Assembly: GCF_002778325.1 (NCBI RefSeq)
Contig: NZ_NESI01000007.1
Span: 170,712 to 234,711 of the forward strand
DNA: 64,000 nucleotides
Source: Limnohabitans sp. B9-3
GTDB lineage: Bacteria; Pseudomonadota; Gammaproteobacteria; Burkholderiales; Burkholderiaceae_C
Reading direction: 5' to 3'
This document shows positions 23,444-53,308 of the stretch, piece after piece. Position 1 is the stretch's first letter; each line of letters starts with the position of its first letter. The notes beneath the pieces were generated by a model. The model searched no databases, had not been told where the DNA came from, and was given only the letters and a program-made list of their open reading frames with translations. A program made the translations under genes and the position numbers.

Positions 23444-23612
23444 CTCAAACTCCTAAGTCAAAAAATTGAGATCAGAGCCCAGCTGCGTTGGCGCGAGGCG
23501 CTGACCTCAATGCATTGCCGTGGTGTGACACGGGTCGGCTATTTTAAGAATCGTACCCCTTACACAGCCTTTCAAAGGGGCATAAATATGGGTAATGCAT
23601 CAAAAAGGTAAC

Positions 23613-23640
23613 AAAAAAGCGCCTGGGCAGGCGCTTTTTT
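23613..23640. terminator. Bidirectional intrinsic terminator
   Basis: Six A, GCGCCT, loop GGGC, AGGCGC, six T: a 12-bp stem with T runs either way. It follows the small membrane-peptide gene on the minus strand by about 40 bases and shields the pckG promoter region (23444-23600). No gene was found between 23444 and 23678. Confidence 0.8.
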
Positions 23641-23678
23641 GGGGCGACGCGTCACAAATCGGTGCGCATCGTGATGGC

Positions 23679-23819
23679 TTAGGCCATGAACACGGCGATG
23701 AACGCCAACAAGAAAATCAGCACCGCGCCAGCCGCAGGCAACACGATGGGCATGAGTGGCACGAGGGATTCCACCACGTCTTGTTCGCCGGTGTGGGGGG
23801 TGTTGTGCGGATTGGACAT
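23679..23819 (-). CDS. Small single-pass membrane protein (46 aa), function unknown
   Basis: A short open frame with good expression signals: ATG at 23819 preceded by GAGGA with seven bases spacing, and a terminator shortly after the stop. The peptide has a polar acidic N-terminus (MSNPHNTPHTGEQDVVESL) and one hydrophobic helix (MPIVLPAAGAVLIFLLAFIA) ending VFMA. Such small proteins are often missed by gene callers. It lies between pckG and the pilus transglycosylase gene on the same strand as both. I do not recognise a family; possible roles are a regulator of a membrane complex or an accessory subunit of a respiratory enzyme, neither shown. Confidence 0.65.
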   Translation of the reverse strand: MSNPHNTPHTGEQDVVESLVPLMPIVLPAAGAVLIFLLAFIAVFMA

Positions 23820-23857
23820 GTTCAGTTCCTCAAAAAATTAACTGGCGAAATTTTAAG

Positions 23858-24343
23858 CTAATTCATGCTCGCCAGTGTCATGGTGGATACGGTCAGTGCC
23901 GGGTTGAGGGAAATGCCTTGGCGCGCCAGCTGATTTTTGAGCAAACCTTGGTAGCGCGTGTTGTGCACCGGCGTCACGGAATGGTAGGCGGCGGCACCAA
24001 ACCAGGTGTAGCCGTGGCGCTCGAGCCCGCGCTTCAAAAACCACGCCGATACATAAGCACCTTTGCACGCGTCAAGCAAATGCTTTTCGGTCACGCCGTA
24101 GCGTTGCAACTCTGGCAAATGCATGGAGTTGATCTGGCCAATGCCCAAGTCCACCGTGCCATTTGTGTTTTTGCCCACCGCGCGTGGGTTGAGCCCAGAT
24201 TCCACTTGCAGCACCGCCAGCAGCAAATGCGGGTTCACACCGTGAAACTCCGCCGCCGACTGCAAGCACGACGGTGCGTTGGTGGCCCAAGTGGCGCGTG
24301 TCAAAACCAAAAAAATCAAAGCGAGTAACCATTTAACAGTCAT
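23858..24343 (-). CDS. Lytic transglycosylase of the pilus locus (PilT of R64 type / IagB-like)
   Basis: Exported SLT-domain enzyme that cuts peptidoglycan so that the pilus can pass the wall. The 161-residue product has a signal peptide (about 1-20, ending TWA), an N-terminal Cys motif, the catalytic Glu in LLAVLQVESGLNPRAVGKN, and the SLT marks VDLGIGQINSMHL and GAAAYHSVTPV. Size and layout match PilT of the R64 thin pilus, VirB1 and IagB; note that this PilT is unrelated to the retraction ATPase of type IVa pili. ATG at 24343. It is divergent from the prepilin peptidase gene, with a TAGTAGTAC motif in the shared 101-bp gap. Confidence 0.85.
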   Translation of the reverse strand: MTVKWLLALIFLVLTRATWATNAPSCLQSAAEFHGVNPHLLLAVLQVESGLNPRAVGKNTNGTVDLGIGQINSMHLPELQRYGVTEKHLLDACKGAYVSAWFLKRGLERHGYTWFGAAAYHSVTPVHNTRYQGLLKNQLARQGISLNPALTVSTMTLASMN

Positions 24344-24366
24344 GATTGAATCCAAATTCGTTTATT

Positions 24367-24375
24367 TAGTAGTAC
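24367..24375 (+). promoter_or_regulatory. TAGTAGTAC motif, copy 1 (transglycosylase/prepilin peptidase gap)
   Basis: TAGTAGTACTTTAT lies in the AT-rich divergent gap of the pilus locus. The same nine-base core occurs twice more upstream of the pilin gene, suggesting a site for one regulator of the locus. Confidence 0.4.
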
Positions 24376-24444
24376 TTTATCACGACAATGTAGTTTTTAA
24401 TGTCAAAATTAACTGAAATATGAAACCTGAGGATTTTTACTTGT

Positions 24445-25290
24445 ATGGATAACTTTCTGATCTTCGCCTTGGCCATCTTGGGCCTTCAATTGGGCAGCTT
24501 CTTGAATGTGGTCATCTACCGCCTGCCCAGGCAGTTGCAGCGGGAATGGCGAGCCGACTGCGCTGCCTATCTAGAAGTGACAGTCCCCCACGAAGAAGCC
24601 TCGCCACTCATGAGTTGGCAAACGCGCTCGCAATGCCCGCACTGCGGCACCACCCTGCGCGCCCGCGATTTGGTGCCGGTTTTGAGCTTTTTGGTGTTGC
24701 GTGGCCGCTGTGCCCATTGCCAGCACTCGGTGTCTTGGCGCTACCCCGTGGTGGAGTTGGCCGTCATGGCCGCTTGGGGTTTGTGTGCGGCGCATTGGGG
24801 GCCAAGTGGCGCGGCCGTGTTGTGGGCCTGCTTTGTCACCACCCTCATCGCGTTGGCCTTCATTGACGCCGACACCCAGCTGTTGCCTGACCAACTCACT
24901 CAGCCTTTGTTGTGGGCGGGGTTGATCGTCGCCGCCCTCGGTTGGACGGCGCAGCCCTTTTTTCCCGCTTTTTGGGGTGCCATTGCGGGCTACATGAGCT
25001 TGTGGCTGGTGGCCAAGCTCTTTGAAAGGGTCCGTGGCCAACCGGGTATGGGCGCCGGTGACTTCAAGTTATTTGCAGCTTTGGGTGCTTGGTTAGGCGT
25101 TGGGGCGCTTCCCTTGCTTGTGCTGGGCGCCAGTGTGTCGGCCGTGCTGGTGGCCGTGGCGATGCGCCTCTCGGGGCGTGGCACTGCCGAACAACGCATG
25201 CCCTTTGGACCTTCTTTGGTGCTGGCAGCCTTGGTGATCTTGGGGCTCAACACCCAAGGTTTTGACGTCACAAGGGCTTGGATGGTTTAA
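24445..25290 (+). CDS. Prepilin peptidase/N-methyltransferase
   Basis: Bifunctional inner-membrane aspartyl protease (PilD/PilU class) that cleaves and N-methylates the pilin and PilV prepilins of this locus. The 281-residue product has the N-terminal methylase domain with FLNVVIYRLP and two CxxC pairs (CPHCGTTLRARDLVPVLSFL and CAHCQHSVSWRYPVVE), then the protease sites FIDADTQLLPDQ and GMGAGDFKLFAALGAWLG with both catalytic Asp. About eight membrane helices. It is thus a full PilD-like enzyme, unlike the short PilU of some plasmids that lacks the methylase domain. ATG at 24445, with a distant AGGA. Confidence 0.92.
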   Translation: MDNFLIFALAILGLQLGSFLNVVIYRLPRQLQREWRADCAAYLEVTVPHEEASPLMSWQTRSQCPHCGTTLRARDLVPVLSFLVLRGRCAHCQHSVSWRYPVVELAVMAAWGLCAAHWGPSGAAVLWACFVTTLIALAFIDADTQLLPDQLTQPLLWAGLIVAALGWTAQPFFPAFWGAIAGYMSLWLVAKLFERVRGQPGMGAGDFKLFAALGAWLGVGALPLLVLGASVSAVLVAVAMRLSGRGTAEQRMPFGPSLVLAALVILGLNTQGFDVTRAWMV

Positions 25291-25344
25291 AAAAACAACA
25301 AACATGAATCATTAAATAAAAACTTTTTGTTAATTTTGTTGAAA

Positions 25345-25405
25345 AGTAGTACTAAATAGTATTTTTGGTTGTATAGTTCACAACGCATCATTTGATGTAC
25401 TACTA
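25345..25405. promoter_or_regulatory. Pilin promoter region with two further TAGTAGTAC-type motifs
   Basis: AGTAGTACTAAAT at 25345-25357 and the inverted copy GTACTACTAATT from 25397 face each other in the 135-bp, strongly AT-rich gap before the pilin ATG. Together with copy 1 they make three occurrences within about 1 kb. A -10-like TATAGT is at 25372. The exact promoter cannot be fixed. Confidence 0.4.
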
Positions 25406-25425
25406 ATTGAAACAAAGGTAACAAA

Positions 25426-26037
25426 ATGAAGATGAATCACCCAATCAAATCACTCGGCAAGCAAGCGGGTTACACCTTGATCGAACTGTCGATCTCCGTC
25501 GCCATCATTTCGGTCTTGATCATGAGCGCCTTGTTTGGCGTGCAAAAAATCTTGGAAAACAACAACGCTGACACAACAAGTCAGCAAGTGACCTTGGCAA
25601 CAGCGAATGTCAACAAGTTCACCACGATGTTGTCTGAATCCAGCTTTCTTGATACAGCCGGTACTGCGGCGACTTTGGGAATCTGGCCTGAGAGCATCGT
25701 CTCAAAGGGCGGAACACCGGTCGTCACCACGATCAAGAACCCATTTGGAGGTTTTTATCTCCTCGGAAAAACGTCAGCGACTGCAACGACATACAACATG
25801 GGTATTACAAACTTGTCGACCAATGCATGTGTTGCTCTTGGAGCCGCACTGAGCAATGCCGCCCTGACCGTGGGAACGGATGAAGCCACCACCTATCTCG
25901 CAGACACGCTCAAGCCAACGACTGCAGTAACCAATATCAAGGCTGTAGGCGCTAAAGCAACGAGTGCTAACTTAGCAACAGCTTGCGCATCGGCGACCAA
26001 CGCCAAGAAAAACCTTTGGTTGACGTACACCCTGTAA
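25426..26037 (+). CDS. Type IVb major pilin (PilS-like)
   Basis: Structural pilin, 203 residues. A short leader ends in QAG, with cleavage before YTLIELSISVAIISVLIMSA: Gly at -1 and Glu at +5 of the mature chain are the prepilin peptidase signature; Tyr at +1 is uncommon, type IVb pilins usually having Met, Leu or Trp. The mature protein (about 188 residues) has two cysteines (NACVAL and ATACAS) enclosing a D-region, ending NLWLTYTL. The codon composition is less GC-rich than the following assembly genes. In R64 pilS follows pilR; here the pilin gene is moved to the front, next to prepilin peptidase. ATG at 25426, AAAGG upstream. Confidence 0.88.
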   Translation: MKMNHPIKSLGKQAGYTLIELSISVAIISVLIMSALFGVQKILENNNADTTSQQVTLATANVNKFTTMLSESSFLDTAGTAATLGIWPESIVSKGGTPVVTTIKNPFGGFYLLGKTSATATTYNMGITNLSTNACVALGAALSNAALTVGTDEATTYLADTLKPTTAVTNIKAVGAKATSANLATACASATNAKKNLWLTYTL

Positions 26038-26068
26038 TTCAACCGTTTTCTGAATCATCCTTTCTACA

Positions 26069-26109
26069 ACGCCGTTCATGTTTTCATTCAAGGTTGCGTG
26101 AAACGGCGT
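26069..26109. repeat. Inverted repeat after the pilin gene
   Basis: ACGCCGTT and AACGGCGT, 25 bases apart, in the 113-bp gap between pilin and TcpQ-domain gene. No T run follows; it may stabilise the pilin mRNA 3' end or attenuate readthrough into the assembly genes. Confidence 0.4.
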
Positions 26110-26150
26110 GTAGTTGGGGTGTCAGAAAGCAAAAAACAAAAGTCTCCAGC

Positions 26151-26669
26151 ATGTCTCAATCCAACCGTTGGTGCTGCTTTGCGCTGTGCGCCTTCGCCGC
26201 AGCTGCCAGTGCCCAAACTCAAGACCACTCAATTTCTGCAACGCGTGTGGCCCTCGACGTCGAGTGGATTCGCTCCCCGCGTGCCGTCTTGAGTTTGGAC
26301 CCTGGTCTCACCACCCAGCAACAAGGCGTGGCAGCCACTCATGCAGCCAAACCCGTGATGCTCGAAGCCAACACGCATAACAACACCACCCGCGTCGGTG
26401 CGCGTCAGGTGTGGAGCATTGAGCAATCAGAAAAACGTTTGTCCCACGCCTTAGAGCGCTGGGCCCAGCTCGCAGGTTGGCAACTGGTGTGGGAAGCCGA
26501 GCGCGACTTTGTCATCGAGTCCAACCTGCACTTGGAAGGCGAATTTTTGAAGGCGGTGGGCACGGTCATGCAATCGCTGGGCAGTACCGACTACCCGCTG
26601 CAAGCCAAGGCCAACCGCACGACATTGACCCTGCGCATTTCAAGGTACCAAGATGCTGGCGTTCAATAA
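26151..26669 (+). CDS. TcpQ-domain pilus assembly protein (short PilL-like)
   Basis: Exported 172-residue protein: signal peptide to about residue 22 (AAAASAQ), a variable middle, and a C-terminal domain RQVWSIEQSEKRLSHALERW followed by AQLAGWQLVWEAERDF and EGEFLKAVGTVMQSL that fits the TcpQ/PilL C-terminal domain. TcpQ stabilises the secretin in the toxin-coregulated pilus. R64 PilL is about 350 residues and a lipoprotein; here only the C-terminal part and a non-lipid signal remain. ATG at 26151; a longer frame overlapping the pilin gene is unlikely. Its end overlaps the secretin gene by 17 bases. Confidence 0.72.
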   Translation: MSQSNRWCCFALCAFAAAASAQTQDHSISATRVALDVEWIRSPRAVLSLDPGLTTQQQGVAATHAAKPVMLEANTHNNTTRVGARQVWSIEQSEKRLSHALERWAQLAGWQLVWEAERDFVIESNLHLEGEFLKAVGTVMQSLGSTDYPLQAKANRTTLTLRISRYQDAGVQ

Positions 26670-28335
26670 GCTTTGCGCTGCCTTGTGCCTCACCCTGTTG
26701 ACGGGCTGTGCCCAAGAGCTGCACCAAAAAATCTCCAAAGAACAAATGGAGATTCAAACGCGGGGCGAAGTGGCCCAAACGCTGATGCGCAAAAAACAAC
26801 TGGCCAGCCCTTATTTGGTCGAAGAAAGCCTGCCGCGTTTCACCACCCGTTCGGTGCCCTACGAGCGCATTGACCCATTGCCCGCCCATTTGGGCAGAGT
26901 GACCATGCGCGTACCCGGCCGTCACAGCCTGAGCAGCGTGGGCGAGATGGTGCAGCGCTTGATCGACATTCCCGTGGTGCTAACCCCCGATGCTTTGCTC
27001 GATGCGGCGCTGTTTGCGCCGGGACAGGCGACCGGTGCAGCCACGCCTGGCGGTGTGATGCAGGCTGGTCTGCCGATCGGCGTCGGTCATGGCGGCTTGC
27101 AAACGGGGCTGAATCAGGGTGCAGGCGCTGGCGTTACCAGCAAAGCGATGCAAGATAACCATGACATCAAACAGCGAGCCGTCGACGCGGGGGCCAATCA
27201 GCCGGCGTTCACAGACAAAGAACTGAGCAACACGTTTGAGCTGAACTACAGCGGCACCGTCACAGGATTGTTGGACTACATCGCCATCCGCGCAGGTTTG
27301 CAGTGGCAGCATCAGCAAGGGCGCATCACGTTCTCGCGTGTGGTCACGCGCTCTGTGCCGGTCAAAGCTTTGGCCGGTGGTTTGAAAACATCGGGCGCTG
27401 TCAGCATGGGTGGTGGCATGACTGCCACAGCCGCTGCTGAAAGCGATGTGTGGCCCATGTTGGAAGCCACGTTGAAAAACTTGGTGTCCCCACGCGGCCG
27501 CATTCAGGTCGACTCCAAAAACGGCACGGTCACCGTCACCGACGCTTTGCACAACGTGAACACCGTGGCCAAGTTTCTCGACAAACAAAACGACACCATG
27601 CTGCGCCAAATCGTGCTCGATGTCGAAGTGCTGCAAATTGACTTGAAGCAAGAACACGCTTCCGGCATCGACTGGAGCGTGGTGAGCCGAGGCTTAGGGG
27701 GCGCGTTGAGTTTGAACGCGCCTGGCTCAGTCGGTGTGTTCAGCGGGTCCACGGGTGGGTCTGTCGGCGCCGCGATTTCGCGTAACGACGGTGGCTCGGT
27801 CAAGGCCTTGGTGAATGCGCTGGAGCAATACGGCCGCGTCACCTCGACTTACTCCACCGTGGTAGCCACCACCAACCGCCAACCCGTGCCGTTGGGCGTG
27901 CAAAGCAGCGAGTCGTATCTGGCGCAAGTCACAGCGGGAGCCAGCAATGCTGTGACTGGTGCGGCAACAGGTGCCACCTTGACGCCAGGCACCGTCAGCA
28001 CCGGGTTCAGCATGGTGTTGATGCCCGTCATCATGGACTCCAACCGCGTGCTGATTGAAAGCACGTTGCAAGTCAGCGCCTTGCGTGAATTGAAAGACTT
28101 CTCCAGCGGCTCGGGCGCGACCCTCAACCGCATTCAGTTACCCAGCGTAGACAGCTACAGCACCATGCAGCGCATCAATGTGGCCTCGGGTGACACGATG
28201 GTGATGTCGGGCTTTGAGCGGGAAACCAACCTGCGCGACGAAAACGACATGGTGCGTGGCGTGGTGCCCGGCAGTCGCCGTGGCAAAAGCAGCAAGCAGA
28301 GCACCGTGATCTTGATCACGCCGCGTCTTCAGTGA
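26653..28335 (+). CDS. PilN-family type IVb pilus secretin (outer-membrane lipoprotein)
   Basis: Outer-membrane channel of the pilus, 560 residues. The lipobox LLTGC (Cys about residue 19) marks it as a lipoprotein, as in PilN of R64, BfpB and TcpC. The N-terminal domains include NTFELNYSGTVTGLLDYIAI and a KNLVSPRGRIQVDSKNGTVT secretin N-domain; the C-terminal secretin barrel spans about 310-560 with YSTVVATTNRQPVPLGVQSS, VLMPVIMDSNRVLIESTLQV and closing MVMSGFERET / SKQSTVILITPRL. ATG at 26653. Length is typical of PilN. Confidence 0.9.
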   Translation: MLAFNKLCAALCLTLLTGCAQELHQKISKEQMEIQTRGEVAQTLMRKKQLASPYLVEESLPRFTTRSVPYERIDPLPAHLGRVTMRVPGRHSLSSVGEMVQRLIDIPVVLTPDALLDAALFAPGQATGAATPGGVMQAGLPIGVGHGGLQTGLNQGAGAGVTSKAMQDNHDIKQRAVDAGANQPAFTDKELSNTFELNYSGTVTGLLDYIAIRAGLQWQHQQGRITFSRVVTRSVPVKALAGGLKTSGAVSMGGGMTATAAAESDVWPMLEATLKNLVSPRGRIQVDSKNGTVTVTDALHNVNTVAKFLDKQNDTMLRQIVLDVEVLQIDLKQEHASGIDWSVVSRGLGGALSLNAPGSVGVFSGSTGGSVGAAISRNDGGSVKALVNALEQYGRVTSTYSTVVATTNRQPVPLGVQSSESYLAQVTAGASNAVTGAATGATLTPGTVSTGFSMVLMPVIMDSNRVLIESTLQVSALRELKDFSSGSGATLNRIQLPSVDSYSTMQRINVASGDTMVMSGFERETNLRDENDMVRGVVPGSRRGKSSKQSTVILITPRLQ

Positions 28336-29591
28336 GCACGACGATGTTGGTGAATGGCAAGCATTTGGTGTTCGGCGGGATGTGGACGCCCGCCAGCGAA
28401 GGGGCGGGTTGGAAAAAAATCCTGAACACCGCCTTCAACGAGGGCTACACCCACCACGCGCTCAACGAGTACGAGAGCACGGTGGGGCTGTTTGGTGGAT
28501 TGCCCAAAGACGCTAAAAATACCCACGCCGCAGCGTTGGTGTTCGCGCAGCATTTTTCGGCGGGCGGCACTGAGTTGTTTGTGTTTCAAAGTGGCGAGCA
28601 GTGCGGCTTGGTCTGCTTGATGGAGTACGCCCCGATTCCTGGCTACGACGTCATAGGGACGCAAGAAGAGATTCAGCAACTCATTCAAGAGTTCAACGAC
28701 ATCAACACCTCACAACTGGTGCACAGCTACGGTAATGTGAACTGGCTGGCAGGAATTGAACCCCTAGAGCTGCACAAGGTGGCTTACAAGGCCGATGCCA
28801 AGTCCAAGCTCAAGCGCATTCCCAACGTCAAGTTGCGCATGGTGATGGGGTCGGTTGGGGCACTCTGCGTCGCAGCCGGTTTGTACGGGTTTCAGCAGTA
28901 CCTCGATATGCGCCAAGCGCAAGAAGCAGCCATGGCGGCAACGGCACAAAACCCGAACTTGCTGTATGAGCAAACTTTGGCCGTCGCCCTCAAAACCACA
29001 GGCGAACCAGGTGGGCGTAACCTGAAGGTTTGGGGTCAGTTTTTTGCCAAACTGCCTTTGAACGTGGGGGGCTGGACGTTTAAAACCCTCGAATGCAAAC
29101 AGCGGGTGTGCGACGTCGTTTGGTCGCGTTCGTCGGGCACCTTCCAAAGCTTTGAGGCCGCATTGCCAGCCGAATTGAAAGCTTTAACCAGCCTGAAACT
29201 CGAAGGTGACCTGGTCAGAGCTGAAGTGCATACGCAGCACAAGCTCAGCGAGCTGTTTGCGCCAGATGCCAAACATGTCATCGACCACAAAGCCTTGCCT
29301 GTTGAAAAAGACGTGCAAAAGCTGTGGGGCAGTCAGTTGCAAGACCTCTCGCTGCTGAAAAATTTGAATGTGAATTTGGGTAAATCAAGTTTGTTTGGCG
29401 GGCAAGGCAGTGCGCTCGAATTGATGCGCCCCATCGTCAAAGGCGCTTGGAGTATTGACCACGACATTTGGAGTCTGCCCGAACTGCCGATGCCCGACTA
29501 TGTTGTGCCCGAGAACTTGAAGGTTGCCCTCAGTGACGCGCGCGAATTCCGCTACAAGATGGAAGGAAGCTACTATGCCAAAGCTAAATAA
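28332..29591 (+). CDS. PilO-like type IVb pilus assembly protein
   Basis: Inner-membrane/periplasmic assembly protein, 419 residues, by content and position PilO2/PilO of the R64 type. Residues 1-165 are a cytoplasmic domain (VNGKHLVFGGMWTPASEGAG), one membrane helix lies near 175-190 (MVMGSVGALCVAAGLYGFQQYL), and the periplasmic part follows, with a Cys pair (TLECKQRVCDVVWSR). Starts with GTG at 28332 in a GTGA overlap with the secretin stop; ATG at 28344 is the alternative. It is followed by the PilP-like gene, overlapping by 17 bases. Confidence 0.8.
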   Translation: MSTTMLVNGKHLVFGGMWTPASEGAGWKKILNTAFNEGYTHHALNEYESTVGLFGGLPKDAKNTHAAALVFAQHFSAGGTELFVFQSGEQCGLVCLMEYAPIPGYDVIGTQEEIQQLIQEFNDINTSQLVHSYGNVNWLAGIEPLELHKVAYKADAKSKLKRIPNVKLRMVMGSVGALCVAAGLYGFQQYLDMRQAQEAAMAATAQNPNLLYEQTLAVALKTTGEPGGRNLKVWGQFFAKLPLNVGGWTFKTLECKQRVCDVVWSRSSGTFQSFEAALPAELKALTSLKLEGDLVRAEVHTQHKLSELFAPDAKHVIDHKALPVEKDVQKLWGSQLQDLSLLKNLNVNLGKSSLFGGQGSALELMRPIVKGAWSIDHDIWSLPELPMPDYVVPENLKVALSDAREFRYKMEGSYYAKAK

Positions 29592-30141
29592 ATGCCTCGC
29601 CATTTGGTTGCTAGGCACGGTGTGTGCAACTGCCGCCCACGCCCAAATGACCGGCAGCACCCTCGAACAAGCCATTGAAATCGCCCGAGCCAGCAAGTCG
29701 GGTGAATTGGGCTTGCGTCCATCCCATCGTGGGAACAACGAGCCCATCGCCTTGCCCAAGCCTGTCCGCACAGAGGTGACGCAACCCAAGGTGTGGAGCA
29801 TCACCGGCCTAGACCGAGACTTGTCGGTCGAGGTGGTCTATGAAGGCAAGGTGTATCCCTTGTCTGTGATGAGAAACCAACTGCGCGCAGGTCCTTGGAT
29901 GTTGGTGCGTTTGAGCGCGCATTCAGCTGATTTCGCGTATCTACCCAACGGCCAGCGCATGCGTGAGAAGACCCAAGTGGTGCAAGCCTTCCCGCCTGGA
30001 TCACACGCGCAAATGCAGGGCTACTTTGACGCACCTGTACTGCTGGCTGCGCCTGTTGCTGGGGCTGTTTCTGGTGCTCATGCGCTAGGCGCTCGACCAC
30101 CGCTGCCTCCTGAATTAATGCGCCCAGCGATGCAACCATGA
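29575..30141 (+). CDS. PilP-like type IVb pilus biogenesis protein
   Basis: Exported 188-residue protein. Signal peptide to about residue 21 (WLLGTVCATAAHAQ), then the PilP opening MTGSTLEQAIEIARASKSGE, and a segment of the PilP family: KVWSITGLDRDLSVEVVYEG, YPLSVMRNQLRAGPWMLVRL. The C-terminal 40 residues are Pro/Ala rich with hydrophobic stretch. Expected to work with PilO in linking secretin and inner-membrane platform. ATG at 29575 has GGAAGGAAGC upstream, so the longer frame to 29524 is rejected. ATGA overlap with the ATPase gene. Confidence 0.75.
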   Translation: MPKLNKCLAIWLLGTVCATAAHAQMTGSTLEQAIEIARASKSGELGLRPSHRGNNEPIALPKPVRTEVTQPKVWSITGLDRDLSVEVVYEGKVYPLSVMRNQLRAGPWMLVRLSAHSADFAYLPNGQRMREKTQVVQAFPPGSHAQMQGYFDAPVLLAAPVAGAVSGAHALGARPPLPPELMRPAMQP

Positions 30142-31826
30142 GTATCGCCAGCATCATCACCCCGATCAGTGTGACGGGGCAATTCATCAGCAACTTCAAG
30201 GATGTGCCTTCGTTCAGTCATTTGCTGACGCACGGGCACGAGGCGATCACCACCGTGCCCAAAGACAAAGAGCGCACTTTGGTGGCGCTGGGCTTGCAAG
30301 ACAAAGGCTACTTTTTGTTGTGCACGCCTGAAGAGCAAAACAAGGTGGCGTGGTTTGCGTTGCGCGAGCGTTTGAAAGCCCGAGGCTACTCGCCACGTGG
30401 CCACGCCACCTGCAGTGAAGAAGTGATGAACGTGCTCTTGCGCGACGTGGGGCGTATCAGCAAAGAAACAGCGCGACAAATGGAGGAAGACGCCGAAGTG
30501 CTCAGCGACATCGTCAAGGAGTCGCAGCCCATTGGTTGGTTTCGCGATGTGCTGGCCAGTTGCATCAACTTAGGCGCGACCGATTTGCATTTCGAGCTGC
30601 GTGGTAACCGCGCCATGGTGCGCGTGCGGTTGGACGGCTTGATGCGTGTGCTGACTGCGGTGCCGCACCAAATTGCGCTGGACGGTATTTCGGCGGTCTA
30701 CAACATCATTGCCGAAGAGCGTTCGCGTTCGGAAGGCGTGTTCAACCAAGCGCTGGCGCAGCAAGCCATGATCCCTTTTGTGTTGGGCTCGGAGACGGTG
30801 AACCTGCGCTTTCAGAGCCATCCGGCAGTGTCGGGCATGGATGTGATCATGCGGATTTTGCGCACCAACAAAGACAGCAAAAAGAAGCTGAGTTTGGACA
30901 CCTTGGGCTATACCCCGTCACAAATTGATGCCTTGCAAACAGCGGTGGGCAGCTCGTGGGGCGGCATCTTCATTGCGGGCATCACGGGCTCGGGCAAGAC
31001 CACCACCTTGAACACCTTGCTCACGCAGCTGGCCCAAGAAGGAAACCGAAAAATTGTGTCCATCGAAGATCCGGTGGAGTACCACGTCAATGGCGTATCG
31101 CACCTGTCCATTCAGCGCAGCGTGAATGGCGATGAGTCGGCCAACCCGTTCAAGGGCGCCATGATGGCGTTCTTGCGGATGGACCCCGACGTGGGCATGT
31201 TTGGCGAGATCCGCGATGCGTTCTCAGCCGAGATGGCCTTAGGAGCGATTCAAACGGGCCACAAAATTTTGACCACGGTGCACGCCACGTCTGCCTTGGG
31301 TGTCGTGGACCGCCTGACTTCCAAGTCGCTGGGGTTGTTGCGCGACAACGTGTGCAACCCTGAGTTTTTGTCAGCCTTGGTCTACCAAGTGCTGACGCCC
31401 ATCAACTGCCCCGCGTGCAAGGTGCGTGCCATGGATGTGATGTCGCCTGCTGCGTTGATTCCGTATCAAACGATTTTTGGCTTGGATGTGCGCGATATTT
31501 ATTGTGCGAGCGATTGTGGGTGCGAGGAATGCCTGAAGCCCAATATCGACTATTCCAACAGCAAGCATGCGGGTGTGAAAGGCGTGAAGGTGAGCGCAGA
31601 AGTGATCTTGCCGGATGAAGAGATGTTCTTGCTGCTCAAAGACGGCAAAGGCATCGAAGCCCGCAAAGCATGGCGCGCCAAGCGAACGGCCAAATTCAAC
31701 GAGTCTGACATGACGGGCAAAGAGGCGTGGGGCCATGCGCTCTACGACATGTCGCGGGGCTTGATTGACCCGTATTACTTTGAGATGAACTTCGGCTTGC
31801 CCAAGTTGTTTGCGCCCAAGGTGTAA
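30138..31826 (+). CDS. PilQ-type pilus assembly ATPase (GspE/PulE superfamily)
   Basis: Cytoplasmic hexameric ATPase powering pilus extension, 562 residues. After an N-terminal domain of about 120 residues, the bilobed core starts at DVLASCINLGATDLHFELRG; Walker A is GITGSGKTTTLNTLL (about 279-293), the Asp box SIEDPVEYHV, Walker B MRMDPDVGMFGEIRDAFS and the His box QTGHKILTTVHAT. The C-terminal region contains Cys pairs (NCPACKV; CASDCGCEECLKPN) likely to bind zinc as in related GspE. This is the only assembly ATPase; no separate retraction ATPase gene of the type IVa kind is present. ATGA overlap upstream. Confidence 0.93.
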   Translation: MSIASIITPISVTGQFISNFKDVPSFSHLLTHGHEAITTVPKDKERTLVALGLQDKGYFLLCTPEEQNKVAWFALRERLKARGYSPRGHATCSEEVMNVLLRDVGRISKETARQMEEDAEVLSDIVKESQPIGWFRDVLASCINLGATDLHFELRGNRAMVRVRLDGLMRVLTAVPHQIALDGISAVYNIIAEERSRSEGVFNQALAQQAMIPFVLGSETVNLRFQSHPAVSGMDVIMRILRTNKDSKKKLSLDTLGYTPSQIDALQTAVGSSWGGIFIAGITGSGKTTTLNTLLTQLAQEGNRKIVSIEDPVEYHVNGVSHLSIQRSVNGDESANPFKGAMMAFLRMDPDVGMFGEIRDAFSAEMALGAIQTGHKILTTVHATSALGVVDRLTSKSLGLLRDNVCNPEFLSALVYQVLTPINCPACKVRAMDVMSPAALIPYQTIFGLDVRDIYCASDCGCEECLKPNIDYSNSKHAGVKGVKVSAEVILPDEEMFLLLKDGKGIEARKAWRAKRTAKFNESDMTGKEAWGHALYDMSRGLIDPYYFEMNFGLPKLFAPKV

Positions 31827-31832
31827 CCCAGC

Positions 31833-32903
31833 ATGTTGAATTCGTGGACAGATGCGATCTTGTTGCGCAGCGCGCGCCATGCTTTGCGCGCGCGCCGCGC
31901 TGAGTTTTATTACGACTTGGCGTCGTCGCTGACCGACAAAGTGCCGTTGTTTTCAACGCTGAAAGACTACGAAGCCCGTGCCCGCAGGCGTAACCGTGGC
32001 GACGCCTTGATGTACTTGGAGATGCTGCAGGCCACGGAGGTAGGTTCGCTGTCGGACGCTTTGATTCCCATTGTGTCGCCCACCGAGTTGATCTTGCTGG
32101 ATGCGATCCAACGCGGCGGTGATGCCGAGTTGGCCAAGGGTTTGTTTTTCTTGGCTGAAACCGTTCAGAAAATCGACATGATGCAAGCCGCTGCGCGTAA
32201 GGCCGTGGTGTATCCCGTGATGTTGCTGGTGGTTTTTTCCATGATGTTGGTGGGCTTTGCTTTGTTTACCGTGCCCATCGTGGCCCAGTTGTTTGACCCT
32301 GCTTTGTGGCCGTTCATGGGGCGTGTGTTGTATGGCGTGTCGCAGTACCTCTTGCATTACGGCATCTGCACCTTCTTGGCGTTCCTCAGTTTGGCGACGG
32401 CGTTCGCCTACTCACTGCCGCGTTGGCAAGGGCCGGTGCGCCGACGCTTGGACCGTTTCATGCCTTACGGCATGTACCGCGTCTACACGGGTTCGATGTT
32501 GATCGTGTCACTCTCGGTGTTGCTCAAGTCGGGGGTGTCCTTGCGCTCAGCCATTGAGCGCGCCATGAAATACAGCAGCCCTTGGTTGCGCTGGCATTTG
32601 AAAGAAATTTTGCGTGGTCTTTCCGATCAGAGTGCGGCCAAGTTTGGCACCGCATTTCGCACAGGGTTGTTAACCCAAATGATCGAAGACCGCATTGAAG
32701 ACGCCGCCAAGCGCCGCGATCCCGTGACCGCCTTTGTGAAGATTGGCGTGGGCTCGATTGACAAAATCGTGCGCAACGTGGAGGACGCATCGAGCAAGGT
32801 GAACACCACCATGCTGGTGATGGGTGGCCTGATTCTGGGCGGCATGATGCTCGGTTTCATGCAAACCACCATGGAAATTCAAAGCGCCATCAGACCCACA
32901 TGA
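31833..32903 (+). CDS. PilR-type inner-membrane platform protein (GspF/TcpE-like)
   Basis: Polytopic platform protein, 356 residues, the partner of the assembly ATPase. Two GspF-like repeats: cytoplasmic LSDALIPIVSPTELILLDAI with helix LLVVFSMMLVGFALFTVPIV, and LLKSGVSLRSAIERAMKYSS with a C-terminal helix MLVMGGLILGGMMLGFMQTT. Three to four membrane helices in total. ATG at 31833, six bases after the ATPase stop. Its end overlaps the PilV-like gene in ATGA. Confidence 0.9.
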   Translation: MLNSWTDAILLRSARHALRARRAEFYYDLASSLTDKVPLFSTLKDYEARARRRNRGDALMYLEMLQATEVGSLSDALIPIVSPTELILLDAIQRGGDAELAKGLFFLAETVQKIDMMQAAARKAVVYPVMLLVVFSMMLVGFALFTVPIVAQLFDPALWPFMGRVLYGVSQYLLHYGICTFLAFLSLATAFAYSLPRWQGPVRRRLDRFMPYGMYRVYTGSMLIVSLSVLLKSGVSLRSAIERAMKYSSPWLRWHLKEILRGLSDQSAAKFGTAFRTGLLTQMIEDRIEDAAKRRDPVTAFVKIGVGSIDKIVRNVEDASSKVNTTMLVMGGLILGGMMLGFMQTTMEIQSAIRPT

Positions 32904-34366
32904 CCGCAACACGCATTCCCTCATTTCGCCGCACACAGGGCTTCATCTTGATCGAGGTCATGATCGCCATGGCTATTTTTACGGGCATGGTGACCTATGG
33001 GCTGTACTTGCAAAACTTGGCTGTGAAGGGTGAGCAAGGCCGCGCGGTCGGTCAGCAATACGCCGCCATCAACAGCGCAGTGGGTAACTACATGGTGACC
33101 CACTATGCGGCGCTGGAGAAACTGCCTGTGGCTTGCAGCACCACCACCTTCAAGATCGGAACATCGGGATCGTTCACGCCGGTGGCTTGTGGTTTGCAGA
33201 TTTCCAGCACGGTGAGCATGGTCAATGGCATGCAACCCACCGTCGCTGAATTGGTTGCCGCAGGTTACTTGCCTTCCGACAAAGCTGGTGCGGCCGTTGG
33301 CGTGCCGTCGCTGCCCATGGACTTGGTGGTGGCCGAGGCCAATGCCAGCACAGGCGCAGCATCAACCACCAAAGCGGTAGGGCGTTTGTTCATCAACATC
33401 GACCGCGTGTGCTTGGCGACGCATTCCGCCAACCCTGGCTCGGTGATTGCATCACAGCTTCCCGGTGCGGGTGGTTGCGACCCACAGACCACCACCAGTT
33501 TGACCAGCGTGGTGTTCAACACCCAGCCTTACACATTCAGCAGCTCGGCAAACGTGGGCTATGCCAACCGCATCAACGCTGCGTGGCGTGAAATTGGTGC
33601 GGATGCGGCCATGTCCAACATCACCAAAGGCGGGGAGTTGAAGGGGGCGAACTTTGAAATTCCTAACCCTGTGCGCAGCGCCACCAACGTGGGGATGGCG
33701 GGCATTGTGGCCGTGCGCAATGGCTACGGTGCGTCCTACGCCAACAACCACGCGCGCGTAGATGGCAGCAACCCACCGACCGCAGATTGGAGCTTTGCCA
33801 ATAACAGCATTTCAGATGTGGGCAAGCTGACAGCTCAGTCGGTGGATGTGCAAACTGTGAAGGCCAACGTCGTCAACGCCCAAGTCCTGAAGTTGGGAGA
33901 CCGGGTTGAAGGCGATGCTTGTAATGGGAGCAAAGAAAACGTGTCGTATGGCAACGACACAATTTTGATGTGCAAGTCCGGCAAGTGGGCCGCCTTAGGC
34001 GCAAAGGGGACGGTGAATGGCCTCGAATACTACGAGTTTGTGCTGAATAAAAACAAAGGTGAATACATGTCGCTTAGCCTCACCCACTGTCCGAAGTCGG
34101 GGTGCTCTGTAGGCTATTCATACAGCAATGGTGGCCCCGTTGAGCTCATCACCTCGCTGAAAAAAGACGAATGGCATCCTGTGTTGGTTCGTGTTGTGGA
34201 TGAACCGAACGGCCCAATTGGCGTGATGCGGGCGAATTACGGGTTTGAGGTGGACGGTTATGGCTATTACAAATTCATGTTTTATTCGGGCGCCGGTCTT
34301 CTTTCCCAAATCTTTAATGCCGAATTTGCCTACTTTACTATCCGGTTTTACCGCATCAACCCATGA
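32900..34366 (+). CDS. PilV-like tip prepilin/adhesin (shufflon-type constant domain)
   Basis: Minor pilin, likely at the pilus tip, 488 residues. The leader ends RRTQG before FILIEVMIAMAIFTGMVTYG (Gly -1, Glu +5), so it is processed by the prepilin peptidase. The body to about residue 370 has the PilV/shufflon-type constant domain, closing with VLKLGDRVEGDACNGS and LMCKSGKWAALG, the place where shufflon-encoded tails begin in R64. The remaining about 120 residues (four aromatic-rich segments, Cys in THCPKSGCS) are the presumed receptor-binding tip and are lower in GC than the rest. No inverted alternative tails or recombinase gene follow, so the tip is fixed. Confidence 0.82.
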   Translation: MTATRIPSFRRTQGFILIEVMIAMAIFTGMVTYGLYLQNLAVKGEQGRAVGQQYAAINSAVGNYMVTHYAALEKLPVACSTTTFKIGTSGSFTPVACGLQISSTVSMVNGMQPTVAELVAAGYLPSDKAGAAVGVPSLPMDLVVAEANASTGAASTTKAVGRLFINIDRVCLATHSANPGSVIASQLPGAGGCDPQTTTSLTSVVFNTQPYTFSSSANVGYANRINAAWREIGADAAMSNITKGGELKGANFEIPNPVRSATNVGMAGIVAVRNGYGASYANNHARVDGSNPPTADWSFANNSISDVGKLTAQSVDVQTVKANVVNAQVLKLGDRVEGDACNGSKENVSYGNDTILMCKSGKWAALGAKGTVNGLEYYEFVLNKNKGEYMSLSLTHCPKSGCSVGYSYSNGGPVELITSLKKDEWHPVLVRVVDEPNGPIGVMRANYGFEVDGYGYYKFMFYSGAGLLSQIFNAEFAYFTIRFYRINP

Positions 34367-36294
34367 TCAATCACGTTTCATTCGGGCCTTCAAATTATTT
34401 GGGCCCCGTCATTAGCGCGCATTACGACCACGTGGAAGTGCTGGCCAACCTACATGCACAGCCCGATACGCAAGGGTTGACGCGTGGCAGTTTTGTGGTG
34501 ATGGTGCGTCACACGCATGCAGGCACGCCGTTTCAGGAGGCGCTGCAAGCGCCTCACACAGAAGATGTCAGTCGCGCCGAGTTCACCGTGTTGCGTTTGC
34601 GTGATGTGAAGTCGACGCTTGAATTGAGCGAGCCCCCCTTGCGCCACTGCCATCGGTTGGTGGCCGCCACGCCGGGTTGCGACGCACTCAGTTTGAGCGT
34701 GTTGTCGTTTGAGGTGTTGGGCACTTTGTTGTTGGATGCGACGGGCGCCAATGGCTTTCGTTTTTCTGGCGATTCAGGACGTCTTGGCCATGCCAGTCGT
34801 TACTGCGCGTTCATGCCGTGTCAGCTGATGCTCGCCATCATTTTGAATGGCACGGTGCCAAGCGGTCAGCGCATCAACCTCGGTGTGCTGCGAGAGAGCG
34901 AGACCCATGTGCACACACAACAGCCGCAGCCGATTTATCTGTCCATGGGCGATGTGCGCGGCAAACGCACAGCCATGTTTGGCAAAACCCGCTTGGGTAA
35001 AAGTAACGTGGTGAAGTTGTTGGTGCAGGGCATGTTGGACATCACGGTTCACGACCATTCGGTGGGCCAGTTGATTTTTGATGTGAATGGTGAATACGCC
35101 AACGACAACCCGCAAGATGGGGGCTCCATCGCGTCGTCGTACCGTGACCGCAGTGGGGTGTATTTCTTGACGGACCGAGGTGGCAATGCCGACGGTAAGT
35201 TGCTGCGCTTTAACTTCTTTGAGCAGACGGACAAAGCGCTTGAGATCATGCGCGAGTTGTTGCCAGAGTCGACGGTGGCCACCGACTATGTGCGTACTTT
35301 GCTGAACTGTCGTTTGCCCGAGTTGGTGCGCGACCCGCGCATGAGCGAAGACTTGGCGCTGCGTGTGCTGCGCAAGATCATGTTGTTTTGGACAATCTTG
35401 CATGAGGCGGGCTTCGACCACGACGAGTCGCGCTTGCTGCAAATCTTGAACCAGACGGGTTTCAAAAGTTTGCTCAACCCTTGCTTCCCGCAAGCTTTGC
35501 GTTTGGCGGCCTATCAAGCGATCAATGGCCAACCGGCACCTGCTCCCCCGAAGTCGTTTGTGGACATGTGCGCCGAAATGCGCGTGATCGCCAAGTTCGC
35601 TCTTTCGTATGGCAACGACCCATGCCTGATGCGTAATGGCGTGTTCTTGTTTGAGTTGGACGAAATGATCATGGCGAGGTTCTTGTCGCCCAACACCTCA
35701 GATGGCCCGTTTGTGTTGCGTCCTTGTATGCCGTTTCATGCGCCGATGGCCGACGGGTTCACCGACGAAATCTTGCAGGCACTGCATGTGGGCAAAACGG
35801 TGATCGTGGACTTGGGCGGAGCGAATGAAAAGATCATTCGTTACTTTGCCAAAACCTTGTCGGTGGCGGTGTTTCATGCGCAAGAGCAAAAGTTTGTGAA
35901 CAACGCCTTGAACGATCGGTATGTGCAAATCTATTTCGAAGAGGCGCACATGATTTTTCCGTCCAGTGCGTCCAACGTGATCGACGTGTATTCGCGTTTT
36001 GCCAAAGAGGGCGCGAAGTTCAATATTGGCATTGTTTACTCCACGCAGTCGCCATCCACGGTGAATGAGGACTTGCTGGCCCAGACTGAAAACTTCTTCA
36101 TTGGCCACTTGTCCAGCGATCGCGAAGCGGCCCGATTGGCCTCGGTTCAAGTGGCGTTCAAAGGCTGCGAGCAAGACATCATGCGCATGCGAACTCCAGG
36201 TTTGATGCGCATGCTGGCGTACTCGAACCGGTATTTGATCCCCGTGCAAGCGGGGCGGTACAACGGGCAAACGCGTTTGGTGGATGCGTCTTGA
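34363..36294 (+). CDS. HerA-like (DUF87) ATPase encoded at the end of the pilus operon
   Basis: A 643-residue P-loop ATPase of the HerA/FtsK superfamily. Residues 1-190 contain a beta-rich N-terminal part (HAS-barrel-like: VEVLANLHAQPDTQGLTRGS). Walker A is GKTRLGKS at about 206-213; LIFDVNGEYANDNP is the HerA D-x-x-G-E-Y motif; Walker B is IYFEEAHMIFP at about 522-532, followed by the sensor region GIVYSTQSPSTVNEDLLAQT and conserved NFFIGHLSSDRE. HerA proteins are ring DNA translocases working with nucleases in repair or in phage defence, but no NurA, Sir2 or nuclease gene is adjacent. ATGA coupling to pilV ties it to the pilus. VirB4/TraC was considered; motifs fit HerA better. Confidence 0.82.
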   Translation: MINHVSFGPSNYLGPVISAHYDHVEVLANLHAQPDTQGLTRGSFVVMVRHTHAGTPFQEALQAPHTEDVSRAEFTVLRLRDVKSTLELSEPPLRHCHRLVAATPGCDALSLSVLSFEVLGTLLLDATGANGFRFSGDSGRLGHASRYCAFMPCQLMLAIILNGTVPSGQRINLGVLRESETHVHTQQPQPIYLSMGDVRGKRTAMFGKTRLGKSNVVKLLVQGMLDITVHDHSVGQLIFDVNGEYANDNPQDGGSIASSYRDRSGVYFLTDRGGNADGKLLRFNFFEQTDKALEIMRELLPESTVATDYVRTLLNCRLPELVRDPRMSEDLALRVLRKIMLFWTILHEAGFDHDESRLLQILNQTGFKSLLNPCFPQALRLAAYQAINGQPAPAPPKSFVDMCAEMRVIAKFALSYGNDPCLMRNGVFLFELDEMIMARFLSPNTSDGPFVLRPCMPFHAPMADGFTDEILQALHVGKTVIVDLGGANEKIIRYFAKTLSVAVFHAQEQKFVNNALNDRYVQIYFEEAHMIFPSSASNVIDVYSRFAKEGAKFNIGIVYSTQSPSTVNEDLLAQTENFFIGHLSSDREAARLASVQVAFKGCEQDIMRMRTPGLMRMLAYSNRYLIPVQAGRYNGQTRLVDAS

Positions 36295-36312
36295 GCGAAG
36301 TCAGACGCTGCT

Positions 36313-38312: not shown

Positions 38313-39356
<1,044 letters not shown>

Positions 39357-45921: not shown

Positions 45922-45952
45922 CTGTTTTGTTAGCCCCCAGGTGAGTACCCCC

Positions 45953-48712
<2,760 letters not shown>

Positions 48713-50937: not shown

Positions 50938-51692
50938 ACGATTCCCGCGATTTCCAGTTTGCGTTGGCCCGTCATTTGCGTGACCCGCACAGCATGCCCT
51001 TGCCTGCGGGCGTGTCTGCTGAGCAGGCCGCCACGTATGAGCGTGCCATGTTTAAAAACTTGTGCGACATCCTCAATCCCGCCTATCCGCTCACGCGTGG
51101 GCTCTTGGGTGACTGGGCTTGGCGCGCGGCGGTCCGTTACTTTCTGCGCGACTATCCAGCGACAGCACCTTGGCCTCGTACCGTCTTGTTGGAATTTGCG
51201 CGCTATTTGCGTGAGAGTCCTGAGACACAAACCTTGCCCGCCTGGCTCAACGATGTGTCGCATTTCGAATGGCTCAAAGGCGCGGTGGCAACCTCCGCTG
51301 TGGTCTTGCCGCAAGCGGGCGTGGCGGTGGATGTCACCGCTGATTTGATGACGCATGTCGTGGTGCTGAACCCGACCTATGTCGAGGTGTCGTACGACTG
51401 GCCCGTGGACGACATCGACTTGGATCACCGCCCCGATGAGAGGCAGGCCACTTACTTGTCTGTGTTGCGGGATGTGGATGGCGCAGTGCAAGTGGTGACG
51501 AGCAACTTGTTTCGTGCGCAGTTGCTGGCCTTGTTCAATGATGGGATGACGGGCCGTCAAGCATTCAACGCCATGGCTGTCTGGTTGCAACACCCGAACA
51601 CCGAAGACCTGTTGCGCTATGGCCCCGATTTGCTGGCGCAATACCAAAACGAAGGCGTGATTCTGGGCGGGAAGGTGGCAGCTGGCCTTTAA
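50931..51692 (+). CDS. BufC/HvfC-like DUF2063 protein
   Basis: 253-residue partner of MNIO proteins. N-terminal DUF2063 domain: RDFQFALARHLRDPHSMPLP, ATYERAMFKNLCDILNPAYP, LLGDWAWRAAVRYFLRDYPA, LPAWLNDVSHFEWLKGAV. The family serves as substrate-peptide recruiter for BufB in bufferin maturation. The C-terminal part (LNPTYVEVSYDWPVDDIDLD onward) resembles the second DUF2063 domain. ATG at 50931 overlaps the MNIO-like gene. It converges with yifB, the stops overlapping by two bases. Confidence 0.78.
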   Translation: MLNDSRDFQFALARHLRDPHSMPLPAGVSAEQAATYERAMFKNLCDILNPAYPLTRGLLGDWAWRAAVRYFLRDYPATAPWPRTVLLEFARYLRESPETQTLPAWLNDVSHFEWLKGAVATSAVVLPQAGVAVDVTADLMTHVVVLNPTYVEVSYDWPVDDIDLDHRPDERQATYLSVLRDVDGAVQVVTSNLFRAQLLALFNDGMTGRQAFNAMAVWLQHPNTEDLLRYGPDLLAQYQNEGVILGGKVAAGL

Positions 51693-53236
51693 CGGCTGAC
51701 TAAAACCCGTCGGTACTGCACCGCCTCTGCCACATGCGCCACCTGAATGTGGGTGGCGTCGGCCAAATCGGCGATGGTGCGTGCCACCCGCAGGGCTCGG
51801 TGCGTGCTGCGCCCCGACCACCCCAACTTGCTCGCCGCGCTCTGCAAAAACTGCGCGGCTGCCTTGTCGATGTGCACATGATCGTCGAGGGCTTGGCCCA
51901 CCAGTGATTGGTTGGGTGCACCTTGACGCGCCATGGCTTTGGCATGGGCCGCTGCGCAACGTGCCCGCACAGTGGCCGTCGACTCGCCTGGACCTGCCTG
52001 CAGCAGAACCTCCGGCGCGAGGGTGGGCACTTCAACTTGTAAATCAATGCGGTCCAACAACGGGCCACTGAGCTTGCCTTGGTAGCGCGCCACTTGGTCG
52101 GGTGTGCAGCGACACGCTTTCAGCGTGGAGCCCAAATAGCCACAGGGGCAGGGGTTCATGGCCGCAATCAGTTGAAACTTGGCCGGAAAACGCGCTTGCC
52201 GCGCCGCCCGTGAAATGGTGATGTGGCCGTTTTCCAGCGGTTCGCGCAAGGCTTCCAATGCACTGCGGTTTACCTCGGCCAGCTCGTCCAAAAACAAGAC
52301 CCCGTGGTGCGCCAGCGAAATCTCGCCTGGCCGCGGCGGGGTGCCACCCCCTACCAAAGCCACTGAGGTTGCGGTGTGATGGGGGCTGCGTGTGGGCCGT
52401 TGCAGCCATTGACTCAGCTCAAAGCGCCCCGCCAAGCTGGCGATGGCGGCACTCTCCAGCGCCTCGTCCAGCGTCATGGGCGGCAGCAGGTCGGCAAAGC
52501 GTTGCGCCAACATGGATTTGCCGGTGCCGGGTGGCCCTACTAAAAGAAGAGAGTGGCCACCTGCCGCTGCAATTTCTAGGGCACGTCGCGGTGCGGCTTG
52601 GCCTTTTACATCCGACAAATCGGGCCCACGCAAGGGCGTGGTGCTTTGACCCACTGGCGATGCAATGCGGCACCAACCGCTGGCGTCGCTCTCGGGTGCT
52701 GTGGCGTTGCTCAGCCCTGGTTTGGCAAAGCGCGCCACCACGTCGCTCAAATGGTTCGCGCGGTACACCTCGGCCGTGGGCACCAAAGCCGCCTCTTCGG
52801 CGCTGCCCGGCGGCAGCACCAAGCGCGTGCGTAGACCAGCGCTGTGCAGTGCTAGCCCCATGGCTAAGGCACCGCGCACGGGGCGCAGCTCGCCGGACAG
52901 TGACAGTTCACCTGCGAATTCGTGAAGTGCCAGCGCCGCCTCGTCGAGCTGGCCATGCGCGGCCAAGATGCCCAAGGCAATGGGCAAATCAAACCGCCCT
53001 GAGTCTTTGGGCAGATCGGCGGGCGCAAGGTTGACCGTGATGCGCTTGTTGCTGGGAAAGTCCAAGCCTGAGTTTTGAATGGCGCAGCGCACCCGCTCGC
53101 GCGCCTCTTTGACTTCGGTGTCCGCCAATCCCACCAAGCTGAAACTGGGTAGGCCGTTGGCCAAATGCACCTCAACGGTCACGGCAGGCGCCTGCAAACC
53201 TAAAAGTGCGCGGCTGTGAATCAAGGCTAAGGCCAT
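51689..53236 (-). CDS. YifB-family Mg-chelatase-like AAA+ ATPase (ComM)
   Basis: 515-residue hexameric ATPase, ComM/YifB, which promotes branch migration during natural transformation in Vibrio and Haemophilus. N-terminal ChlI-like domain (GLPSFSLVGLADTEVKEARE; NLAPADLPKDSGRFDLPIAL), Walker A LLLVGPPGTGKSMLAQRFAD, Walker B GVLFLDELAEVNRSALEALR, the zinc-like MNPCPCGYLGS site and C-terminal Mg_chelatase_C domain (GWSGRSTHRALRVARTIADL). ATG at 53236 with AGAAGA upstream; the frame extending to 53296 is not supported. Divergent from the porin gene. Confidence 0.93.
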   Translation of the reverse strand: MALALIHSRALLGLQAPAVTVEVHLANGLPSFSLVGLADTEVKEARERVRCAIQNSGLDFPSNKRITVNLAPADLPKDSGRFDLPIALGILAAHGQLDEAALALHEFAGELSLSGELRPVRGALAMGLALHSAGLRTRLVLPPGSAEEAALVPTAEVYRANHLSDVVARFAKPGLSNATAPESDASGWCRIASPVGQSTTPLRGPDLSDVKGQAAPRRALEIAAAGGHSLLLVGPPGTGKSMLAQRFADLLPPMTLDEALESAAIASLAGRFELSQWLQRPTRSPHHTATSVALVGGGTPPRPGEISLAHHGVLFLDELAEVNRSALEALREPLENGHITISRAARQARFPAKFQLIAAMNPCPCGYLGSTLKACRCTPDQVARYQGKLSGPLLDRIDLQVEVPTLAPEVLLQAGPGESTATVRARCAAAHAKAMARQGAPNQSLVGQALDDHVHIDKAAAQFLQSAASKLGWSGRSTHRALRVARTIADLADATHIQVAHVAEAVQYRRVLVSR

Positions 53237-53291
53237 AAATCTTCTCTTTCTGCGTATTTGTCCCCAAGTTGGGGCGGTTTCTAAATGTTTA

Positions 53292-53308
53292 CGCACCAGT
53301 CTTGTGCG
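53292..53308. promoter_or_regulatory. NtrC-like binding site
   Basis: CGCAC, seven bases, GTGCG, close to the NtrC consensus TGCAC-N7-GTGCA, centred about 95 bases upstream of the sigma-54 promoter -24 element. Position and spacing are what an NtrC enhancer needs. Confidence 0.5.

Follow-up and report, generated by a model that had tools for sequence, protein, structure and literature searches.

A HerA-family ATPase carried almost throughout one R64-like type IVb pilus lineage of several Betaproteobacteria

Both type IV pili and HerA DNA pumps are familiar systems. The 64,000-nucleotide stretch of the Limnohabitans sp. B9-3 genome analyzed here (the window) raises the question of why both should be encoded in one operon, and whether their neighborhood is anything more than an accident. 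Such a union in a bacterial operon is apparently undescribed, as no account of one was found in the excerpts of the mostly open-access literature among the matches listed (including PMC6668835 and PMC11104534).

A complete HerA-family ATPase at the end of a pilus operon

The locus contains the following features:

23444..36312, no strand assigned, inserted unit with the lytic transglycosylase, the prepilin peptidase, the type IVb pilus operon and HerA (pckA is next to recQ-metH in 5/5 pilus-less relatives)
23858..24355, minus strand, PilT-like lytic transglycosylase (open reading frame [ORF], named without a family scan; in many related loci, same-strand homologues adjoin HerA)
24445..25290, plus strand, prepilin peptidase (PF06750, PF01478)
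25426..26037, plus strand, PilS-type major pilin (PF07963, PF08805)
26151..26669, plus strand, PilL/TcpQ-like protein (PF10671, 7.3e-20; start placed at a signal-peptide-like sequence, ORF opens at 25983)
26653..28335, plus strand, PilN-type IVb secretin (PF00263 over cut-off; TIGR02520 at 6.8e-68, below its own cut-off)
28332..29591, plus strand, PilO, divergent from the canonical form (PF06864, 34.9 bits, cut-off 26.7)
29575..30141, plus strand, PilP-like protein (named by position, no family hit; putative start, ORF opens at 29524; related loci have homologues at this position)
30138..31826, plus strand, PilQ assembly ATPase (T2SSE; PF00437, 6.4e-60)
31833..32903, plus strand, PilR platform protein (T2SSF; PF00482)
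32900..34366, plus strand, PilV-like large minor pilin (PF07963 and position)
34363..36294, plus strand, operon-terminal HerA-family ring ATPase (DUF87, TdpA profile, model and fold match)
34384..34896, plus strand, HAS barrel of HerA, at about residues 8-178 (identity comparison; model strands spanning residues 12-176)

Names from PilL to PilV are those in use for R64, as is the PilT-like name of the 23858..24355 product. With PilS, the PilN secretin, PilO, the T2SSE and T2SSF motor parts and a prepilin peptidase, the operon encodes an R64-type type IVb pilus, and the sequence-only reading, which had placed herA at the end of such an operon, was right, the upstream components apart from PilP being over Pfam cut-offs. 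PilN reached 229.4 bits against TIGR02520 (equivalog cut-off, 287.65), a score that indicates a divergent member of the R64-type pilus, and PilV was over cut-off only for the prepilin N-terminal motif. Relaxase, type IV secretion system (T4SS) and DNA-channel families were all below cut-off in the ten window proteins scanned.

The herA ORF (643 amino acids, ATG start) opens in the ATGA at 34363-34366 that overlaps the pilV stop. It carries FGKTRLGKSN (Walker A), DVNGEYAN (the D-x-N-G-E-Y motif), YFEEAH (Walker B) and TQSP (the Gln sensor), together with an Arg/Lys finger region; the stop overlap and the first four motifs had already been noticed from the sequence, and both observations held. 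Each of these motif patterns recurs in 117-120 of 120 listed homologues. The protein scored 39.2 bits against the Pfam DUF87/HerA central domain (cut-off, 23.2), and its predicted model (pLDDT of 91.5) shows strands between residues 12 and 176 followed by a RecA core, i.e., the N-terminal HAS barrel plus RecA core of the HerA family, with a fold match from residue 8 to 641. TdpA was the best solved relative by profile (9.2e-34) and, among the fold matches listed, tied for top over those same residues, the model matching both TdpA and HerA folds. The named NCBIfam HerA equivalogs were all below cut-off (HerA_antiphage, 52.1 versus 800 bits; helicase_HerA, 39.6 versus 970; CedD, 28.4 versus 600). 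By profile, motor motifs and confident model, the ORF is a complete HerA-family ATPase; a hexamer around DNA and translocation of double-stranded DNA (dsDNA) are predicted from its relatives. HerA dN/dS ratios were 0.035-0.197 in eight pairs, similar to those of the pilus genes, although they are rough for four of the pairs because dS exceeds 0.9 there. A scan of genome contigs with the single protein found no relative, whereas the alignment-based scan did.

Linkage, co-inheritance and insertion

Pilus-linked HerA proteins form one clade (21 rows, SH-aLRT of 100). Pilus genes adjoin HerA in 19 of the 20 database loci of this clade (L005-L019, L023, L042, L043, L047 and L048; L016 is the same locus as L117), linkage counts of this kind leaning towards HerA because most loci were picked by HerA. 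The 20th is L047, whose contig stops at HerA, and in L023 only a prepilin peptidase lies beside HerA. The position of HerA varies: it may close the operon behind pilV, follow pilT, stand between pilT and pilV with either of the two in front, or precede a prepilin peptidase or, in Herbaspirillum-type loci, pilS. The sequence-only reading had called for a search of related genomes for conserved linkage and gene order, and had held that homologues mostly outside pilus loci would make the linkage accidental. The linkage is kept but the gene order is not, and homologues do lie mostly outside pilus loci in the wider family but not in HerA's own clade.

To relate presence of the two, 84 genomes of the genus, 399 of the family and 399 of the order were sampled. 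HerA was matched in 12/84 genomes of the window's genus, nine of them with pilus genes on the same contig. In G002 it is split across two contigs, one carrying pilR and pilV; in G019 the contig ends within it; and in G034 it is broken by several stops, with no pilus gene on 40.0 kb of the 40.7-kb contig and no PilO match in the genome. PilO was matched in 13/84 genus genomes. Four genomes with the pilus and without HerA (G013, G036, G055 and G060) were excluded from the linkage count, as their pilus contigs of 4-6 kb stop before the HerA position, and G047 has a PilO match below cut-off in a locus that otherwise shows one 32% ATPase match alone. Of the 40 good genus genomes, intact HerA occurs in four, precisely those that have the pilus (Fisher, 1.1e-5, or 5.5e-5 with G034 counted against).

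When loci were sought by pilus gene instead, HerA was present in 11 of the 12 testable loci of the lineage. Picking by PilO gave HerA in 8/8 testable genus loci (G000, G006, G014, G024, G035, G038, G043 and G477) and added from the order the second locus of G238, also with HerA. PilR was matched in four of the 399 family genomes, three with HerA (G000, and G502 and G687, whose contigs, judged by their length, are those of L006 and L011) and one without (G816). By PilR and PilN, G816 falls inside the HerA-carrying lineage; its pilus locus has no HerA, the best match in the genome reaches only 24.6 bits, and pilT is followed by a convergent gene whose listed ORF reads like a CNNM/CorC-type protein. 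HerA can thus be lost and is not indispensable to the pilus.

Across the 399 order genomes, PilO was over cut-off in 9 (below it in 7 more) and HerA was matched at E <= 1e-20 in 5, three of them of a distant NurA-linked type; the two occurred together in G000 and G238. HerA was absent from the fetched stretch of 6/6 canonical pilus loci (L149-L154; G280, G339 and the second locus of G138 were left out of the fetch), and PilR and PilN split HerA-carrying from canonical pili across one branch. HerA is a nearly constant gene of one R64-like type IVb pilus lineage found in several Betaproteobacteria, including the environmental strains Roseateles depolymerans DSM 11813 and Methylobacillus glycogenes JCM 2850.

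Over 20 loci, HerA distances correlated with those of PilN, PilO, PilQ and PilR at r values of 0.81-0.88, each reached by 0/2000 permutations (PilQ versus PilR, for comparison, gave 0.87), and the nearest neighbors of HerA and pilus agreed in 17/20 loci. Species history common to both contributes to this correlation. Nonetheless, the loci of Comamonas and Methylobacillus, which belong to different families, are mutually nearest for HerA and for the pilus, suggesting co-transfer.

In 5/5 pilus-less genus relatives fetched, of six with recQ found, pckA and recQ-metH are immediate neighbors, their tblastn match edges 222-561 bp apart, while in the window 12.9 kb of pilus genes and HerA sit between pckA and recQ. 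This empty-site result applies to the window's own insertion; RecQ gave no match at E <= 1e-100 in the HerA-carrying genomes G006, G477 and G014. The pilus-HerA unit of the window is inserted whole between pckA and recQ. A YifB/ComM-like ORF (51689-53296, named from the sequence without a family scan), to which attention had been drawn as a transformation factor some 15 kb away, does lie ~15.4 kb from herA but for this reason carries no weight, and a comM link was dropped. That HerA is coupled to the pilus is well supported by the single clade, by co-inheritance, by the insertion of both as one unit and by the decay of HerA in a genome in which the pilus was undetected. The linkage is more than chance, a chance neighborhood being ruled out by the clade, co-inheritance and empty-site tests.

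Nuclease-linked relatives and the HAS barrel

The sister clade of pilus HerA comprises 60 loci from many phyla (L020-L084 minus the five pilus loci in that range) in which a methyltransferase, HerA and a NurA/TdpB-like protein form a cassette. Its HerA is ~37-47% identical to that of the window, with the motor motifs in common, and pilus-like matches occurred in L057 alone (27 and 135 bits, at least 7 kb off on the other strand). The third cassette protein retrieved TdpB and NurA in a fold search, while a PDB profile search gave five matches only, all with E of 0.38 or worse. More distant HerAs (L145-L148) are also beside a NurA-like nuclease. No name for the cassette was found in the literature excerpts among the matches listed (including PMC12839542 and PMC10853773), and works retrieved as joining TdpA with HerA were unrelated ones only.

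The 22 pilus loci examined yielded neither a methyltransferase partner nor a NurA-like one of the kind encoded with the ATPase in HerA-NurA and TdpAB complexes. In the window, recQ on the minus strand comes directly after herA, in agreement with the earlier remark that no nuclease partner is adjacent, and a search of the whole genome with the NurA-like profile A2 (run without a positive control) gave no match at E <= 0.001, so that a partner encoded elsewhere was rejected as well. A plasmid or phage gene was likewise discarded, as HerA reached at best 29.3% identity in a set of 72,556 plasmid records and 30.2% in one of 50,697 phage records. In IMG/VR, three matches at 40-42% were of the cassette type and a fourth, at 27%, adjoins a NurA-like gene. 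The best reading is that the pilus HerA was recruited from a HerA-nuclease system.

The HAS face is the docking side for nuclease and Sir2 partners. In alignment A3, motor identity averaged 71% and HAS identity 28% over the 47 pilus rows (46 of them database proteins classed by tree position alone), compared to 72% and 70% over the 22 cassette rows. A branch with an SH-aLRT of 100 separates all 47 from the cassette rows, HAS identities to any cassette row being at most 32.1%, and seventeen context-checked pilus loci gave similar values (motor, 67%; HAS, 27%). Among positions invariant in the cassette rows, 71/97 in the motor and 6/60 in the HAS region were kept in at least 95% of the pilus rows. 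Given the rest of HerA, HAS distances correlated with PilQ (r of 0.60) and with PilN, PilO and PilR (0.39-0.44), whereas the same test gave -0.19 to 0.22 for the two motor parts and 0.12-0.35 for the helical part, so that the latter, too, varies in step with PilR (0.35). The permutations take no account of the tree, and shared ancestry remains in the signal. The HAS docking partner may have changed from nuclease to pilus machinery, a reading that is only suggestive because fast-evolving regions carry more deep signal and because of those tree-blind permutations.

Putative role and comparison with known systems

Judging from homology, DNA handling appears to be the likeliest role of HerA. Since HerA is nearly always in the pilus operon and is a predicted DNA pump, these pili likely move DNA into or between cells; that the ring pumps dsDNA at the pilus base, serving pilus-guided DNA transfer, we regard as having close to an even chance. 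The ring would have been taken over from a nuclease-based system that lost its nuclease, and the diversified HAS barrel would dock on the pilus assembly machinery in its place. PilV-type pili would keep hold of partner cells or bind DNA, while the ring would drive DNA export or import, the latter possibly together with ComEC, which is present in the window's genome. A bolder version, which we offer tentatively, would make this pilus lineage a self-contained DNA-exchange machine, with a captured HerA ring, the nuclease dropped and the HAS collar re-fitted, pumping dsDNA between touching cells without a T4SS as a bacterial counterpart of Ups/Ced and Thermus transjugation. The pilus kept by G816 without HerA counts against the DNA-pump reading, as does the lack of relaxase, T4SS or DNA-channel families over cut-off in the ten window proteins scanned, and the NurA-like neighbors of the sister and L145-L148 HerAs mean that defense fits at least as well. 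The earlier idea that HerA may tie the pilus to DNA handling or defense is partly supported: well as regards the coupling itself, with handling likeliest by homology and defense possible.

As a defense module, HerA would inspect or hold DNA entering at the pilus, by mating or with pilus-using phages, and pass it to a nuclease encoded elsewhere. The sister cassette argues for this, as do the best structural relatives, which include TdpA solved with TdpB and DNA, and HAS diversification could reflect an arms race. However, the 22 partnerless pilus loci, the genome without a profile A2 match (no positive control) and a HAS change that follows the assembly machinery more than the exposed PilV and PilS (PilV aligns poorly) make it unlikely. 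We also consider it improbable that HerA is a second, VirB4-like pilus motor powering assembly or retraction without handling DNA. The operon does have PilQ as its one dedicated ATPase, but the motor residues are as in nuclease-linked relatives (the 71/97 positions above) and the same kind of pilus does without HerA in the 6/6 canonical loci and G816. A neutral or unrelated passenger is very hard to credit, since, in spite of G816, HerA forms one clade linked through several gene orders, was apparently co-transferred in Comamonas and Methylobacillus, is under purifying selection and has decayed in G034, in which the pilus went undetected.

Should the ring move DNA, these pili would provide environmental Betaproteobacteria with a chromosomal gene-transfer route for which no conjugation plasmid is needed; should it move none, a HerA ring would have turned pilus motor or guard. 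HerA-carrying pili, canonical pili without HerA and G816 make up a natural contrast set in which the question is directly testable.

Among known systems, TdpA has a role in phage defense. Its HAS plus motor layout (TdpAB; PDB 8wet and 8wfd) is like that of the window HerA, but it was solved with its nuclease (the PDB titles include TdpB and DNA), while the window HerA sits in a pilus operon with no such partner found. The cassette HerA differs in having partners on both sides, a conserved HAS region and no pilus genes beside it except in the distant, other-strand case of L057. VirB4 and TrwB are fold neighbors, chiefly in the motor domain and with lower Z among the fold matches listed; VirB4 is needed for pilus biogenesis in T4SS, according to the available part of PMC11104534, whereas no T4SS family was over cut-off in the ten operon proteins scanned. 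The R64/PAPI-1 type IVb (thin) pilus loci have the PilL-N-O-P-Q-R-S-T-V set in common with the window operon but lack HerA in 6/6 canonical loci fetched, the HerA-carrying pili being a separate PilR/PilN group; excerpts of PMC5297154 and PMC9045228 describe R64-type pili as used for mating in PAPI-1 and TP114. In Thermus, TdtA is a HerA-like hexameric ATPase required in DNA donation and paired with the recipient's competence uptake (PMC5365140, in part); it resembles the window HerA in ATPase type, by description rather than by sequence, but is encoded on an integrative and conjugative element with NurA-like and restriction genes instead of in a pilus operon. The archaeal CedD, as described in the accessible portion of PMC11868833, differs from the window HerA in its transmembrane domain and in an N-terminal part resembling VirB4, and the window HerA matches its profile weakly (6.4e-7, below cut-off). 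Nevertheless, CedB and CedD are HerA-clade ATPases that work with Ups pili in DNA import and exchange, the same combination of a HerA-clade ATPase and type IV pili as in the window.

Pilus loci with and without HerA

Genome G816 (L157) carries a type IVb pilus of the lineage that otherwise includes HerA, with HerA itself absent, and its PilR and PilN sit on long branches; it represents a natural deletion control for HerA in this pilus lineage. One strain of Herbaspirillum frisingense has two HerA loci on separate contigs (L042 and L048), both adjoining pilus genes, and G238 harbors a canonical type IVb pilus locus without HerA (L154) together with a HerA-containing one (L127).

A probable metH in two parts near recQ

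The window's metH, named by reading, is found as two separate open reading frames, with ca. 6.6 kb between them:

38313-39356, metH (methionine synthase), first part
45941-48712, metH (methionine synthase), second part

The first part adjoins recQ here and also in all five of the relatives fetched.

The sister-clade cassette

HerA loci of the sister clade, from many phyla, form a three-gene cassette of adenine methyltransferase, HerA and NurA/TdpB-like nuclease, for example:

L026:9020-13243, cassette

In the 60 loci considered (L020 to L084, excluding the pilus-clade loci L023, L042, L043, L047 and L048), the methyltransferase adjoins HerA in 59 and the nuclease in 58. Three IMG/VR contigs classed as viral (L142 to L144) each carry this methyltransferase-HerA-NurA-like cassette. 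Among the members tested, the nuclease matched zero Pfam families above the cut-off and zero PADLOC models. The cassette looks like a restriction-modification-like defence system, unnamed in the libraries used.
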